64,000 nt of DNA from Geminocystis sp. M7585_C2015_104. GTDB taxonomy: Bacteria > Cyanobacteriota > Cyanobacteriia > Cyanobacteriales > Cyanobacteriaceae. How positions within the stretch are numbered: the stretch's first letter is position 1; every line of letters begins with the position of its first letter. The notes below the pieces were generated by a model. It did no database searches and was not told where the DNA came from. It was given only the letters and a program-made list of their open reading frames with translations. Below, one piece after another: positions 6,904-47,067 of the stretch. The stretch is taken from NCBI GenBank assembly GCA_015295805.1, contig DVEF01000079.1:1-64000 (forward strand), in the 5' to 3' direction. A program made the position numbers and the translations under genes.

Positions 6904-8933
6904 TGTTTTTCCCCGATGGAATTGATGTAACTACTATGGCGAAGTCCCTACCCTTGATTGAAGTTGACCACGTAGACCAGGTTTTTGAGCTACCTGGAGG
7001 CGAGCGATACATTGCTCTCAAGAATATTCACCTGGAGGTCCAAAAGGGGGAGTTTATTTCCCTCGTCGGTCATTCCGGCTGTGGCAAGTCCACCCTCCTG
7101 AACATCATTGCCGGTTTTCAGCAGCCAACCAGGGGTGGAGTGGTGATGGCGGGCCGCCAAGTTACAAAACCGGGGCCGGAGCGCATGGTGGTGTTCCAAA
7201 ACTACTCCCTACTACCCTGGAAAACTGTTTATCAAAATGTAGCCTTGGCAGTGGAAGCGGCACTGCCCCGTCTAAGTAAATCAGAACGGCGGCAACGGGT
7301 AGAAACTGCCTTGGAGCAGGTACACCTGAGTGCCGCGCGGGACAAGTACCCCAGCCAACTTTCGGGGGGGATGAAGCAGCGAGTAGCCATCGCCCGGGCT
7401 TTGGCAATTCAACCCCAAGTACTGCTTTTGGACGAACCCTTTGGCGCCCTGGATGCTTTGACGCGTGGGTTGCTACAAGACGAACTGATGCAAGTCTGCC
7501 AGGCGACAGAAACCACATGCATTATGGTCACCCACGATGTGGATGAGGCTCTACTGCTGTCGGATAGGGTAGTGTTGCTCACTAACGGTCCTGAAGCTCA
7601 AATTGGCCAGATTCTTAAGATTCCCTTTGCTCGTCCCCGCAATCGCCATGATGTCCTCAACCATCCTAGCTATTATGAGCTGCGCAACGAAATGATTTCT
7701 TTTTTGAATCAGCAAAGGCTTCGTCGCAAGAGCCACTACCCACTCCCGACAACGACTACCCCCTGCAAGGTGAGTCTAACCCTTGGCTTTATGCCCACCA
7801 TCGACTGTGCCCCTCTGGTGGTGGCTAAGGAGTTGGGGTTCTTTGCTAAGCACGGCCTTGAGGAGGTTAGCCTGCATCGCGGGGAAAGCTGGCAGGAGCT
7901 GGTGAGGGGTGTGCTCAGCGGTAACCTCGACGGGGCACAGATGCCAGCGCCTATGCCATTGGCAATGACGTTGGGACTGGAGGGACAACCAGCCCAACCA
8001 CTGATGGGCTCACTAGTCCTAAGCCGCAATGGCAGTGCCATAACCTTAAGTAGACGGCTTTGGCGGCAGGGCGTAAAAACCGCAGCTGACCTGCGGGCGT
8101 ACATCGAGTCCACTGGCCAGCGTCTCCGCTTTGGCATTGTTCACCCGGCCTCGATGCAGAATCTCTTGCTACGTTACTGGCTAGCTGCGGCGGGCATTGA
8201 TCCCGACCAGGACCTGGAACTACTGGTCATTCCAGCAGCACAGATGGCGCATCACCTAGAGGCGGGTTATATCAGCGGCTTTTGTGTGGAGCAACCCTGG
8301 AACTCTCAAGCAGTGCGTCTAGGGGAAGGGGTGATAGTGGCCACTGATCTGGAGATTTGGCCCGGGCGTCCTGAAAAAGTATTGGGGGTGCGTCCCGAAT
8401 GGGTACAGGCACGACCCCAACAGCATCTGGCGCTAGTCAAGGCACTAATTGAGGCCTGTGAATACTGTGACACCATTAAAAACCGCGCCGAAATTGCTCA
8501 ACTGCTCTGTCGGCCAGAATATGTGGGGGGTTCACCCGAAGAGGCGTACGCCGGTTTTGTGCACCCCTTAAACCGGGGAGATGACAGTGCCCCCGCTTTT
8601 CAACCTCGCTTTCACCAATTTTACGTGCACCGTTCCCTCTGTCCCCGGCAACCGGAGGGGCTTTGGATGATGACTCAGTTGGCACGCTGGCAACTCACTC
8701 CTTTCCCCAAGAACTGGCTAGAGATTGTCCAGCGGGTGCAGCGGGTAGAGCTGTTTAGCGCGGCTGCCCGGGAGCTACAGCTCCTCGAAAACGAGCCCGA
8801 GCGGCAGGCTTTTGCCCTATTTGACGGGGTTCCCTTTGAGCCCGACAATCCCCTTGCCTACCTTGAAGCGACGCCAATTCGCCGAGCTTTTGACATTCAG
8901 ACCATCCCTTTTCTGGAAATGGTTTCTGTCTAA
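6903..8933 (+). CDS. nrtC: Nitrate ABC transporter ATPase with NrtA-like regulatory domain NrtC
   Basis: Two-part protein. Residues about 20-265 are an ABC ATPase with Walker [10 protein letters not shown], signature LSGGMKQR and Walker [13 protein letters not shown]. Residues about 290-676 resemble the binding protein NrtA (LGFMPTIDCAPLVVAKELG, RYWLAAAGIDPDQD, FCVEQPW). In known cyanobacteria this C-terminal domain mediates ammonium inhibition of transport and is not needed for catalysis. The ATG at 6903 overlaps the nrtB stop; an in-frame ATG at 6936 (MAKSLPLIEV) resembles other family N-termini and could be the true start. Length 676 compares with about 660 for known NrtC. Confidence 0.96.
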   Translation: MFFPDGIDVTTMAKSLPLIEVDHVDQVFELPGGERYIALKNIHLEVQKGEFISLVGHSGCGKSTLLNIIAGFQQPTRGGVVMAGRQVTKPGPERMVVFQNYSLLPWKTVYQNVALAVEAALPRLSKSERRQRVETALEQVHLSAARDKYPSQLSGGMKQRVAIARALAIQPQVLLLDEPFGALDALTRGLLQDELMQVCQATETTCIMVTHDVDEALLLSDRVVLLTNGPEAQIGQILKIPFARPRNRHDVLNHPSYYELRNEMISFLNQQRLRRKSHYPLPTTTTPCKVSLTLGFMPTIDCAPLVVAKELGFFAKHGLEEVSLHRGESWQELVRGVLSGNLDGAQMPAPMPLAMTLGLEGQPAQPLMGSLVLSRNGSAITLSRRLWRQGVKTAADLRAYIESTGQRLRFGIVHPASMQNLLLRYWLAAAGIDPDQDLELLVIPAAQMAHHLEAGYISGFCVEQPWNSQAVRLGEGVIVATDLEIWPGRPEKVLGVRPEWVQARPQQHLALVKALIEACEYCDTIKNRAEIAQLLCRPEYVGGSPEEAYAGFVHPLNRGDDSAPAFQPRFHQFYVHRSLCPRQPEGLWMMTQLARWQLTPFPKNWLEIVQRVQRVELFSAAARELQLLENEPERQAFALFDGVPFEPDNPLAYLEATPIRRAFDIQTIPFLEMVSV

Positions 8934-9795: not shown

Positions 9796-12069
9796 ATGAG
9801 TAAGTCCAGGGATTGGCTACAGACTGGCTCACCGGCAGTCCGAGCCGATGCCTCTCCGTTGGTACAACAAGTGGCAACCAACCCCCATTTTATTTCTACT
9901 AGTCCTGTCTCCTCCTTGTGTCCCTATTGTGGGGTTGGCTGCGGCCTCGAAGTTGTAACCCAAGGACAGGGGAACTACAAGGTTAGGGGAGATCGCCGAC
10001 ATCCCTCGTCCCAAGGCATGGTTTGCGTAAAGGGTGCGACAATACTAGAGGCCATGGACCGGGATCGTCTTGCCTATCCTCTATGGCGGGAAAATATGGA
10101 TGAGCCCTTTACGGTAATTTCCTGGGATGAGGCCCTCTCCCGCCTGGTGCAGAGGCTTCAAGAAGTACGGCAGAGTCAGGGAACCGATGCTATTTGCATG
10201 TACGCCTCGGGTCAATTGCAAACGGAAGACTATTACGTAGCGCAAAAACTTATCAAGGGCTGTTTGGGCACCAACAACTTTGACACCAACTCGCGGCTTT
10301 GTATGTCCTCTGCCGTGTCAGCCTACATGGCCAGCTTTGGCTCCGATGGTCCTCCATGCTGCTATGATGATTTGGAAGCCACCGACTGTGCCTTTCTCAT
10401 TGGCACGAACACCGCCGAATGCCATCCCATCGTCTTCAATCGACTGCGCAATCACCATAAACGAAATCCCAATGTTAAGCTGATCGTTGTGGACCCGCGT
10501 CGCACCCCCACAGCTGAAGTGGCCGACCTTCACTTGGATATACGCCCTGGCACTGACATTGATTTGCTCCACGGTATTGGCCATTTGCTCTTGCGGTGGG
10601 GATATGTCTGTAAGGAATTTGTTGATAATCACACTCGTGGCTTTGACGACTATGTAAGACTTTTGGCAGCCTACCCGCCGGAGAAGGTGGCTGAACGTTG
10701 CGGCATTAGGCAAGAGGACCTGGAACGGGCGGCGCGCTACTGGGGAAACGCCCAGGCCGTGTTGTCCCTGTGGTCCATGGGCATTAACCAGTCGGCAGAG
10801 GGCACTGCTAAAGCGCGTTGTCTGATTAACCTACACCTGCTCACCGGGCAAATAGGTCGTCCCGGCAGTGGCCCTTTTTCCCTAACAGGACAACCCAACG
10901 CCATGGGAGGACGGGAGGCCGGGGGGCTAGCACACTTATTGCCGGGTTATCGCCAAGTTACGAATCCCCGGCATCGGCAGGAGGTGGAGGATTTTTGGGG
11001 CCTGTTACGGGGACAGATCAGCCCTCGCCCCGGACGTACGGCCTGGCAGCTAATAGAGGCTCTGGAAAGAGGCGAAATAGGCTTTCTTTGGATCGTAGCG
11101 ACCAACCCCGTGGTGAGTATGCCCCACCTGGAGCGGGTCAAAAGGGCTCTACGTCAATCCCCCTTTACGGTTTATCAGGATGCCTACTTCCCCACCGAGA
11201 CGGCGGCCTATGCTCATCTCCTTTTGCCTGCTGCCCAATGGGGGGAAAAAACAGGGGTGATGACCAACTCTGAACGCCGAGTTACTCTAGCGCCGGCCTT
11301 TCGCTCGCCACCGGGGGAGGCCCGCCCCGACTGGGAAATCTTTGCAGAGGTGGGGCGACGATTGGGCTATGCAAGACAGTTTGATTTTCCCGACGCCGCT
11401 GCCGTCTATGCCGAGTTTGTCCAACTTACCGCGGGCCGCCCCTGTGACCAGTCGGGGCTAAGTCATGAACGTCTGGCACGCCTGGGAGCAGTGCAATGGC
11501 CCTGTCCCGCGGGCTGTAGCGATGAAGAAGCCCTAGCCCCTAAGCGCCTTTACACCGACTGGCGTTTCCATACACCCGATGGGAAAGCTCGTTTTTGTAT
11601 TACCCACAGCAAGGGAGTTGCCGAACCCACTGATGCCGTGTACCCCTTCCTCCTGACCACGGGTCGCCTTTATGGCCACTGGCACACCCAAACCCGCACC
11701 GGCCGCATTCCTAAAATTCAGAAAATGCATCCTAGTCCTTTTGTGGAAATGCACCCAAGTGATGCGGCAAATCTGAATCTCAAAGACGGCGACTGGGTGG
11801 AGGTGCGTTCGCGCCGGGGAATGGTCTGCCTGCCGGTGACGGTAACTGAGGCTATTCGGCCGGGGACTCTTTTTGTCCCTATGCATTGGGGGTTTCTATT
11901 TGCTGAAAATGCCGAGGCTAACCAACTGACCCACCCCACAGCCTGCCCCGTATCCCAGCAGCCTGAACTCAAGGCCTGTGCCGTCCAGGTACTTCCTCTC
12001 AAGGGAAAGCCAAAGCCTTTTTCCACTAGGCCTTTTTTGGGGGTGAAAAATGGAATCCAAAAAGGGTGA
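9796..12069 (+). CDS. narB: Ferredoxin-nitrate reductase NarB
   Basis: Molybdenum bis-MGD enzyme reducing nitrate to nitrite with ferredoxin in the cytoplasm. The ATG at 9796 has a strong ribosome binding site (AGGGGAGG, 9781-9788), giving 757 residues; the upstream open frame overlaps nrtD and is not used. The N-terminal [4Fe-4S] ligands are Cys42, Cys45, Cys49 (CPYCGVGC) and Cys77. Further family segments are [23 protein letters not shown] and a C-terminal molybdopterin dinucleotide domain with [17 protein letters not shown]. It is slightly longer than the about 730 residues of known NarB, mainly at the N-terminus. Its Moco would come from moaA/moeA across the spacer and its maturation needs narM downstream. 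Confidence 0.96.
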
Positions 12070-44646: not shown

Positions 44647-45459
44647 GTGTCAATTGTTGGAAGAAAACTGACGGACTCGGTTTTTATGAGGTGGGGCGGG
44701 TTATTGCCATGGGTGGTTTTATTGGTTACGGGGATTAGTATTTTCCAGTCCCAACAACAATACGCCGCCAAACACCTGGAAAATTCTCGTGGGAATGTAG
44801 ATTACTTTCTAGAAGAAAAGAAAATAAAAATGGCACTTTTGTTGCGGAAAAAAATGCCAACTTTTGGTTATAACAACATTTTGGCAGACTGGTACTATCT
44901 GCGGTTTATACAGTATTTTGGAGACAGCCCAGCGCGAGAAAAGACTGGTTATTCAGCCGTGGCGGATTACTTTGAGTTAATCAGTGATTATGATCCCCGT
45001 TTTGTTGATGCATATTTGATACTTTCCACGGCAAATTCTATATATGCTGGACAGGCACCAGCCACGGTAAAATTCCTGAACAAGGTTTTGGCAAATATTT
45101 CTCCAGAAATATCTCCCTATGCCCCCTATCTTTGGATTTACAAGGGAGTAGATGAAATGTTGTTTTTGGGGGATATAAAAGCAGCAAAACACTCCTATGA
45201 GATGGCGGCAAAGTGGGCATTGGCAAGGGGAGATGAGGTAGGAAAAGAAATTGCCAAAAGAAGTCTAGAAACAGCAGCATTTTTGGGCAAAAATCCGGAT
45301 AGTAGGAAGGCAAGAGCAGGGGCTTGGTATACAATTTTCAAGAATGTTTTTGACGAGGAAACAAAGGAAAAAGCACGCCTAGAAGTAGAAAAAGTGGGGG
45401 GAAAAATTGTAGTCCTCCCGGATGGCAGCACACAGCTTCAATTGCCGGAAGAAGACTAA
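44647..45459 (+). CDS. Hypothetical membrane-anchored TPR-like protein
   Basis: 270 residues from a GTG start. One hydrophobic helix (LLPWVVLLVTGISIFQ) near residue 20 anchors it, followed by helical repeats of TPR style (DWYYLRFIQYFGD, YDPRFVDAYLILSTANSIYA, AKHSYEMAAKWALARGDEVG). It ends in an acidic tail. The family is unknown to me. The GTG has no strong ribosome binding site; the next in-frame ATG (MRWGGLLPW) at codon 14 is a possible start. Confidence 0.75.
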   Translation: MSIVGRKLTDSVFMRWGGLLPWVVLLVTGISIFQSQQQYAAKHLENSRGNVDYFLEEKKIKMALLLRKKMPTFGYNNILADWYYLRFIQYFGDSPAREKTGYSAVADYFELISDYDPRFVDAYLILSTANSIYAGQAPATVKFLNKVLANISPEISPYAPYLWIYKGVDEMLFLGDIKAAKHSYEMAAKWALARGDEVGKEIAKRSLETAAFLGKNPDSRKARAGAWYTIFKNVFDEETKEKARLEVEKVGGKIVVLPDGSTQLQLPEED

Positions 45460-45489: not shown

Positions 45490-47067
45490 TTATAGACTAC
45501 TAACCTCCTCTAGACGTTTGAAAACAAAATTTTTGTCCAAGTAGGAGAATAAATATCCTGCCTTTGGGCCTCTATCCTTACCCAAGAAAGCATAATAAAC
45601 TGCGGGAAAAGCAACATTAGGACTAATTCCCATCTGTTTTGTCACCGTAAATAGGGCAGTTTGTAATTCCTCTCCCTCCCATTTTTCGACGGTTTCCAAA
45701 TATTCCCTCAGACGACGTAAATACTGTTTTTGTTCGTCGGTAAGCATAGACACCTTTGAGGGGATTTCCTCAAAGTAAATCACCAGTTTTTCCTCCTCAT
45801 CGGCATAGGATTCTAACCACTTTTTAGCTACAGTAATTCGCTCATTTATCTTCTGCCAGTCGTATTCAGTTAAAGGCCTATCACAGCGTTTTTCTATTTC
45901 GGACTTCAAGTCCAAATGGGGTATTTGTAGAAGGGAAATGATAGTACTAAGTTCAAAGGTATAGTAAGGTTTGATTTCATCTTGCAGCTGGGAATAGTAA
46001 AGAGGCAAAAGTGTGGGAGGCAATTCAGATGTTTCCGCCCCAGCCAACAATTCTGCATACTCATTCAGGAGAGTGTCATAGTCTCTAAAAAGACGGGTAA
46101 TAGTCTCATAATTAGGGGCAAAATTAATAACAGTTTTTGGCTGTGTTCTTAGCATCAAAAAGCGCAAAATTTCTGGGGGCAAAAGTTCAGCCATTTCCCT
46201 GGCACTAGAGCCTATTCCCTTGGAAGAACTCATTTTAGTGCCATTAACTAAAACGAACTCGTAAGGGGAATGGAAGGGCGGTTTTTTCCTGAGGATTTTG
46301 CGGCAAAGGGCATTAGCAACATCCCGTGAGCCCCCTTTTTGGGAATGGTCTTTCCCAGAAAGCTCAATAGTAACCCCCAACAAGTCCCACTTGGCTACCC
46401 ATTCCACCTTCCAAGGGAGTTTCCCATTGCCGTCGAAGGGAGAAATCCATCCCTGATAGCCACACCCCCTCACCCAATCCGTGGCATCCTCCCTACAGGT
46501 GTAAAAAACCTTTTCTCCATTATACTCGCTTACATAAGTAGTAGCAATTTTCCCACAATTTTCACATATCACCTGAAAAGGATACCAGTCATCGGGGCGT
46601 TGGGCATTACTAACTTCTTTATAAATATCTCTTACTACTGCAGCGTTACGGAGAAATAAATCGATGTAGTAGTTTAGCTTTCCACTGCGGTACAAGTCCC
46701 TCAGGTAATAGATTTCAGCTTTAACCCCCAGGTAGTCAAACACTTGCAGAAACTCCCCCATATAGTATTTGGCATAATCTGGGGCCACTGTAGGGTCAGG
46801 GGATGGGACATTACAGAGGGGAAAACCCAGATAAGGGGAGAATTTTTCCGCGTCTAGGTAACGGGGTATACTGTCAAAGGCGTCGTAGTCATCCACACCG
46901 TAGGTAAAACGCGCCGGTTTGCCCTGTCTTTTCAAAGCCCTATAGATAACATCATGAATTATAACACCCCTTAGGGAGCCCACATGTACTCTGCCAGAAG
47001 GAGTTTTCGAGTCGTTTACCAATTCCGGCTGTTGTGAGCTTGCCGCTATCTTATCCGCCCAAAACAT
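45490..47067 (-). CDS. lysK: Class I lysyl-tRNA synthetase LysK
   Basis: Charges tRNA-Lys. The 525-residue protein is a class I (Rossmann) synthetase, not the class II LysS: the HIGH-type motif is TPSGRVHVGSLRG near residue 22 and the KMSKS-type loop is GTKMSSSKG near residue 280. ICENCGKIATTY and a later cysteine pair form a zinc-binding insertion typical of LysK. The C-terminal anticodon-binding domain is helical. Class I LysRS is usual in archaea, spirochaetes and some alphaproteobacteria; the cyanobacteria I know use class II. Codon use resembles the neighbours. Whether a class II gene also exists cannot be seen here. Confidence 0.93.
   Translation of the reverse strand: MFWADKIAASSQQPELVNDSKTPSGRVHVGSLRGVIIHDVIYRALKRQGKPARFTYGVDDYDAFDSIPRYLDAEKFSPYLGFPLCNVPSPDPTVAPDYAKYYMGEFLQVFDYLGVKAEIYYLRDLYRSGKLNYYIDLFLRNAAVVRDIYKEVSNAQRPDDWYPFQVICENCGKIATTYVSEYNGEKVFYTCREDATDWVRGCGYQGWISPFDGNGKLPWKVEWVAKWDLLGVTIELSGKDHSQKGGSRDVANALCRKILRKKPPFHSPYEFVLVNGTKMSSSKGIGSSAREMAELLPPEILRFLMLRTQPKTVINFAPNYETITRLFRDYDTLLNEYAELLAGAETSELPPTLLPLYYSQLQDEIKPYYTFELSTIISLLQIPHLDLKSEIEKRCDRPLTEYDWQKINERITVAKKWLESYADEEEKLVIYFEEIPSKVSMLTDEQKQYLRRLREYLETVEKWEGEELQTALFTVTKQMGISPNVAFPAVYYAFLGKDRGPKAGYLFSYLDKNFVFKRLEEVSSL

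Follow-up and report, generated by a model that had tools for sequence, protein, structure and literature searches.

Class I lysyl-tRNA synthetase very probably stands in for class II LysS in a Geminocystis cyanobacterium, and Microcystis shows stages of such a replacement

Sequence profiles, with matches far beyond chance, confirmed that an intact class I lysyl-tRNA synthetase (LysRS), LysK, is encoded at 45490-47067 of the window, by which we mean the whole 64,000-nucleotide stretch of DNA analyzed here (contig DVEF01000079.1 of Geminocystis sp. M7585_C2015_104). This gene is very probably the housekeeping LysRS of this cyanobacterium, a class I enzyme standing in for class II LysS. That a structurally unrelated enzyme has taken the place of an essential one is a conclusion usually drawn from deep trees; in the present case, a single genus, Microcystis, shows the site of gain, a two-enzyme stage, the clean loss of the old gene and an unchanged tRNA. 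The features of the window gene are as follows.

45490..47067, reverse strand: lysK, class I lysyl-tRNA synthetase, 525 amino acids (open reading frame, TIGR00467, PF01921 and PF19269, similarity to 1irx)
46975..46986, reverse strand: HVGS motif (class I HIGH signature), residues 28-31, present in 45/45 LysKs
46462..46566, reverse strand: cysteine cluster C168, C171, C191, C202 (alignment A1; pattern in 43/45 LysKs)
46216..46236, reverse strand: KMSSSKG motif (class I KMSKS signature), residues 278-284, present in 45/45 LysKs
45504..45840, reverse strand: C-terminal anticodon-binding domain PF19269, residues 410-521 (37.6 bits vs cut-off 23.6)

The lysK reading frame starts with ATG, has no internal stops and spans exactly 45490-47067. 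Its product matched NCBIfam TIGR00467 with 341.7 bits (cut-off 147.55) over model positions 1-512 of 515 and the Pfam class I (K) family PF01921 with 288.4 bits, and was similar to the class I LysRS of Pyrococcus (1irx; E 2.6e-66). HVGS, KMSSSKG and the cysteines, which a first-pass annotation of this DNA had taken as marks of LysK, were all in place, and the profiles agreed. Both motifs occurred in every one of the 45 cyanobacterial LysKs collected. The four cysteines were invariant across the 15 LysKs of alignment A1, and a stricter text pattern was matched by all but two of the 45 (the exceptions were G051 and G135); the cluster is probably a metal-binding insertion.

By profile, LysK of the window belongs to the archaeal-type model; NF001968, another LysK model for the same enzyme class, gave it only 125.3 bits, well under the cut-off of 648. 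Archaeal-type LysRS1 (Pyrococcus horikoshii 1irx, TIGR00467) is alike in full-length profile, in the HIGH and KMSKS motifs and as the best fold match. The predicted structure had a pLDDT of 70.6 overall and a pTM of 0.54, with C-terminal helices of good confidence and a poorly modelled catalytic core, and it is with this weak core that 1irx was its best match in PDB (E 3.4e-25, TM 0.63). The window protein differs from 1irx in being only 28% identical in the fold alignment and in the greater length of its cysteine-bearing segment between C191 and C202, and all of its best relatives are cyanobacterial. Tail to tail with lysK, at 44647-45459 on the forward strand, lies a gene for a 270-amino-acid protein, which had no match in Pfam and is 86% identical in the nearest relative.

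The genome from which the window comes (2.82 Mb in 108 contigs, 96.9% complete) has exactly one LysK by TIGR00467. A search of the genome for class II lysS had been proposed in the first-pass annotation; our profile search of the contigs found no class II LysRS above the cut-off of the LysS model, and the proteins touched by this model were AspRS (859 bits) and AsnRS (700 bits). The broader Pfam model gave one partial match, on contig C88 (28.4 bits, barely above the cut-off of 27). With its 108 contigs and this completeness, the genome alone leaves room for a missed lysS. In the window's family, the six other LysK genomes, some of them assembled in 1-10 contigs, are likewise devoid of lysS.

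The first-pass annotation had offered two interpretations of LysK, replacement by transfer or a second enzyme used under special conditions. The identification as LysK held up, as did replacement by transfer as an event in the window's class, whereas the second enzyme was not borne out. Such an enzyme has a precedent in Bacillus cereus, in which LysK is a second, stationary-phase LysRS under T box control, an acquired class I enzyme in a two-enzyme state like that of one Microcystis genome, G386. B. cereus keeps LysS (PMC2916919), whereas the window genome has none, and an Rfam scan of the window revealed two tRNAs and no other RNA element. Since the window genome lacks a class II LysRS and its class IIb matches are AspRS and AsnRS, LysK is not a second enzyme there; the same absence was seen in the other 44 LysK genomes of our sample. 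Thus, even with one Microcystis genome carrying both enzymes, it is very improbable that LysK serves special conditions while a class II enzyme does the housekeeping. Still more remote is the idea that contamination or a chimeric assembly put an archaeal gene into a cyanobacterial contig. The assembly is indeed in 108 contigs and the nearest relative is a metagenome bin; however, this relative has a LysK that is 93% identical together with five conserved neighbours, genomes of the same family in 1-10 contigs (G187, G119, G056, G109 and G145) have LysK, and the LysK-bearing relatives are cyanobacteria. We rejected this explanation because of the conserved neighbours and the presence of LysK in well-assembled relatives. 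The preferred reading, that lysK is the housekeeping gene, implies that LysK of the window would lysylate the ordinary cyanobacterial tRNA-Lys(UUU).

To place the gene within the phylum, we used 386 genomes drawn evenly from it. LysK was called when the TIGR00467 cut-off was passed (45/386; 167 matched at E<=0.001, and the others among the matches listed were partial and below cut-off), and LysS was called at E<=1e-100 (339/386, 337 of which pass the curated cut-off). Thus, 45 genomes had LysK, 339 had LysS, none had both and two had neither. The two genomes with neither enzyme at the thresholds used are G038 and G053. All 45 LysK genomes fall within the window's class, where 141 of the 186 genomes have LysS, and the earlier statement that cyanobacteria use class II LysS is therefore true of most of them. 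LysK was found in nine families (f1, f2, f4, f5, f6, f15, f20, f22 and f28), three of which (f5, f6 and f22) mix LysK and LysS genomes, and in all seven genomes sampled from the window's family. When named genomes were scanned, 226 relatives were found, the best 80 of which all carry cyanobacterial titles; among the matches listed were Microcystis, Dolichospermum, Anabaena, Aphanizomenon, Richelia, Pseudanabaena, Laspinema, Roseofilum, Geminocystis and Myxacorys. Thus, lysK is ordinary in a large minority of cyanobacteria, and ordinary within the window's family too. The first-pass annotation had held that a LysK both common and vertically inherited in cyanobacteria would speak against its interpretation; LysK is common (45/186), and the LysKs of the window's family (7/7) are a single clade, but the distribution over the class is patchy. 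In genus g74 (family f22), G289 (Myxacorys almedinensis) and G185 differ in LysRS class, as Microcystis strains do.

The open-access literature, a scope that leaves most subscription journals outside, yielded no description of class I LysRS in cyanobacteria. The presence of LysK alone is no discovery, and database annotation will carry these genes. The open-access literature likewise yielded no description of a replacement series within Microcystis. Events of this kind are known; the present case is resolved unusually well, with charging activity predicted.

We analyzed 12 Microcystis genomes, seven of which are also in the sample of 386. Eight had only LysS, three had only LysK and one had both (LysK in 4, LysS in 9). 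The two-enzyme genome, G386, is a single contig of 5,842,795 bases, the size of M. aeruginosa NIES-843, and both its lysK and its lysS pass the cut-offs. The LysK-only genomes are G235 (M. viridis FACHB-1342), G237 (M. novacekii Mn_MB_F) and G357 (M. aeruginosa Ma_MB_S). In G386, a 32-base direct repeat occurs on both sides of a segment made up of lysK and the 149 bases before its start codon, and the stop codon of lysK overlaps into the second repeat copy. The same insertion with both repeat copies was found in G357, whereas in three of the eight LysS-only genomes, those that were compared (G312, G253 and G097), the site is empty and has one repeat copy. The repeats at 8268-8299 and 10055-10086 of locus L352 (G386) surround a 1,755-base lysK insert, and the same arrangement is seen at L353 (G357); a 32-base duplication around one single gene is of unusual length. 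In G235, the site used in G386 is empty and lysK is about 1 kb off, beyond a methyltransferase-like gene (named by eye); in G237, lysK is on the same far side as in G235, with one repeat copy and further inserted DNA. Because this location differs from that in G386 and G357, lysK either moved or was inserted twice. Just upstream of lysK in M. viridis (L079, 4394-4832) there is a segment of which Microcystis genomes contain many partial copies; it is perhaps a mobile repeat that helped lysK to move.

The old gene was present at its locus in G386, G312, G095 and G253. In G235 and G237, a segment of about 2.0 kb that comprises the whole of lysS is missing, which leaves the flanks 157 and 30 bases apart, respectively; lysS has been cleanly deleted in these two LysK-only genomes. 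In G357, lysS is absent, and its locus is rearranged, since the two flanks sit on different contigs. Thus, strains of the bloom-former Microcystis show an old enzyme being replaced by a new one in steps.

The LysK phylogeny proposed in the first-pass annotation resolved the LysKs of the window's family as one clade (support 100/99) and joined three Microcystis LysKs with that of the distant Myxacorys almedinensis (100/100). In a joint alignment, Microcystis and Myxacorys were 90.6-91.4% identical in LysK and 82.7-83.2% in RpoB (92.9 and 84.8 in a local alignment of one of the pairs), which puts these three pairs 5.7-5.8 sd above the line relating LysK to RpoB identity. Placing Microcystis with the window's family in the LysK tree was rejected (p-AU 2e-6), whereas in the RpoB tree Microcystis is near this family (fork of 18 rows, 96/91). 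Microcystis LysS groups with the LysS of its own family (quick tree, 30 LysS rows, SH-aLRT 87). By identities and trees, Microcystis and the distant Myxacorys are shown to be linked by horizontal transfer of lysK. Replacement by transfer, one of the two interpretations mentioned above, does then occur in the window's class, and the Microcystis evidence for it consists of the identity excess, the clade and the sites.

The identity comparison covered the 390 genome pairs in which the RpoB proteins are less than 92% identical. Besides the three Microcystis-Myxacorys pairs, the top pair was only 1.8 sd above the line; the lowest shown pairs all include G135 and reach down to 8.9 points (about 2.7 sd) under it. 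Recent transfer is therefore seen only for Microcystis and Myxacorys, all other pairs being no more than 1.8 sd above the line, and the scatter as a whole would be compatible with an old history of spread and loss no less than with transfer. As judged from its single clade, LysK in the window's family is an old, family-wide state. The RpoB tree was built with 30 LysK genomes out of 45 and with 30 selected from the 339 that have LysS (59 rows, as G131 had no RpoB match); it requires no fewer than nine changes from one class to the other, and the distribution of the two classes is patchy. In the LysK tree, family f4 does not hold together, and uniting it was not rejected (p-AU 0.18).

It is possible, although we regard it as somewhat doubtful, that an early ancestor of the class had both lysK and lysS and that differential loss followed, in which case the window's family needed no transfer. 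This alternative concerns history and not function, and it would take the Microcystis transfer as an extra event. It agrees with the comparison just described, in which no further pair exceeded 1.8 sd outside Microcystis-Myxacorys, and with the insignificant splitting of f4. It is opposed by the RpoB tree, with its minimum of nine changes, and by the zero of 386 evenly sampled genomes with both genes, a result that makes the two-enzyme state look short-lived; in addition, the sole two-gene genome, G386, has a recently inserted lysK. An order in which LysS preceded LysK appears good for Microcystis, and for the window's family it is the distribution alone that would speak for it. We found no donor of LysK outside cyanobacteria, the best 80 of the 226 relatives being cyanobacterial. 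An attempt to root the LysK tree with the LysKs of an Enterococcus gilvus plasmid, Nonomuraea and Pyrococcus (1irx) was abandoned, these outgroups being too divergent; Nonomuraea LysK fell inside cyanobacteria on a branch of length 10. Gene order says little on the descent of lysK: among 85 other LysK loci compared, only that of the nearest relative (L068) shares five window neighbours, L085 gave a single 38% hydrolase match to them, and the Geminocystis loci L069 and L070 (5 kb flanks) kept none. Five further loci of the family were compared with 1.5 kb flanks only.

We read 46 tRNA-Lys(UUU) genes, from 26 LysK genomes (45 searched) and 20 LysS genomes (60 searched). These were picked from strict-pattern matches resembling tRNA-Lys, of which G282 (a LysK genome) gave no clear one; eight ARAGORN strings had an extra T at each end, which was read as outside the tRNA. 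All 46 genes have G1-C72, G2-C71, G3-C70 and A73, and one identical sequence is common to three LysK and four LysS Microcystis. The G2-U71 pair, which Borrelia LysRS1 cannot do without and which acts as an antideterminant towards the E. coli LysRS (PMC9976931, section 47), was absent from all 46 genes (26/26 LysK, 20/20 LysS). Since LysK genomes have G2-C71, cyanobacterial LysK must work without G2-U71 and cannot depend on the pair that the Borrelia enzyme needs. This would lower the likelihood that the tRNA is recognized as in Borrelia, not that the enzyme is LysK. Thus, a check of tRNA-Lys identity elements, also proposed in the first-pass annotation, revealed no change between LysK and LysS genomes. 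A tRNA change as the reason for the swap is unsupported, these positions of tRNA-Lys being the same in both.

Several bacterial groups have been described in which class I LysRS has replaced class II, and such replacement runs through a stage with both enzymes (PMC1475646, in which the LysRS2 tree included nine cyanobacteria). The LysRS1 of Borrelia and Treponema is alike in being a class I enzyme in a bacterium that has lost, or is losing, class II, according to the same paper. We tentatively propose, with slightly less than even confidence, that the two classes are exchangeable in cyanobacteria: a single-gene lysK with its own upstream DNA would move between distant lineages and function immediately with the tRNA-Lys as it is, after which lysS would be deleted. 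The steps of a replacement are visible in Microcystis: lysK and about 150 bases of upstream DNA, near those of a distant cyanobacterium, inserted into the chromosome, as the filled and empty sites and the transfer signal show; a two-enzyme stage is seen in G386, with both genes intact; and in G235 and G237 lysS has been deleted, so that its neighbours abut. LysK would charge tRNA-Lys on arrival, so that lysS could go, and the tRNA need not change because both enzymes would use the same tRNA-Lys, the genes of which are identical.

The best candidate for a selective reason may be a balance that either class can win. According to Shaul 2006 (PMC1475646), LysRS1 is less sensitive to lysine analogues, and turnover by LysRS2 is more than 15 times faster than by LysRS1. 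The open-access literature yielded nothing further of use on lysine analogues in relation to class I LysRS. If the proposal is true, each stage is present in Microcystis today, so that the cause could be tested in close relatives, the candidates being, for example, exposure to lysine analogues in blooms as opposed to the greater speed of the class II enzyme, or phages with a LysRS of their own. Why and how the LysRS classes replace each other would then be open to experiment in culturable strains.

Among mobile elements, 25 pattern matches for LysK in IMG/VR included none that was confirmed, and in a phage collection the sole match was Halogranum tailed virus 1 (two records, 24.6% identity), a haloarchaeal virus with a gene annotated as class I LysRS (KC292026.1, 93967-94737). 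In a plasmid collection, six distant LysK records (24.9-26.6% identity) were detected. None of the three collections yielded a carrier. On a 919-kb plasmid of Enterococcus gilvus, a gene annotated as lysS (L148, 1501-3069) matches class I LysK and adjoins queG; its product is 26% identical to LysK of the window. The annotation of the Microcystis jumbo phage PhiMa05 includes a class II LysRS (PMC8093824), and phage infection may bear on which LysRS suits the host best.
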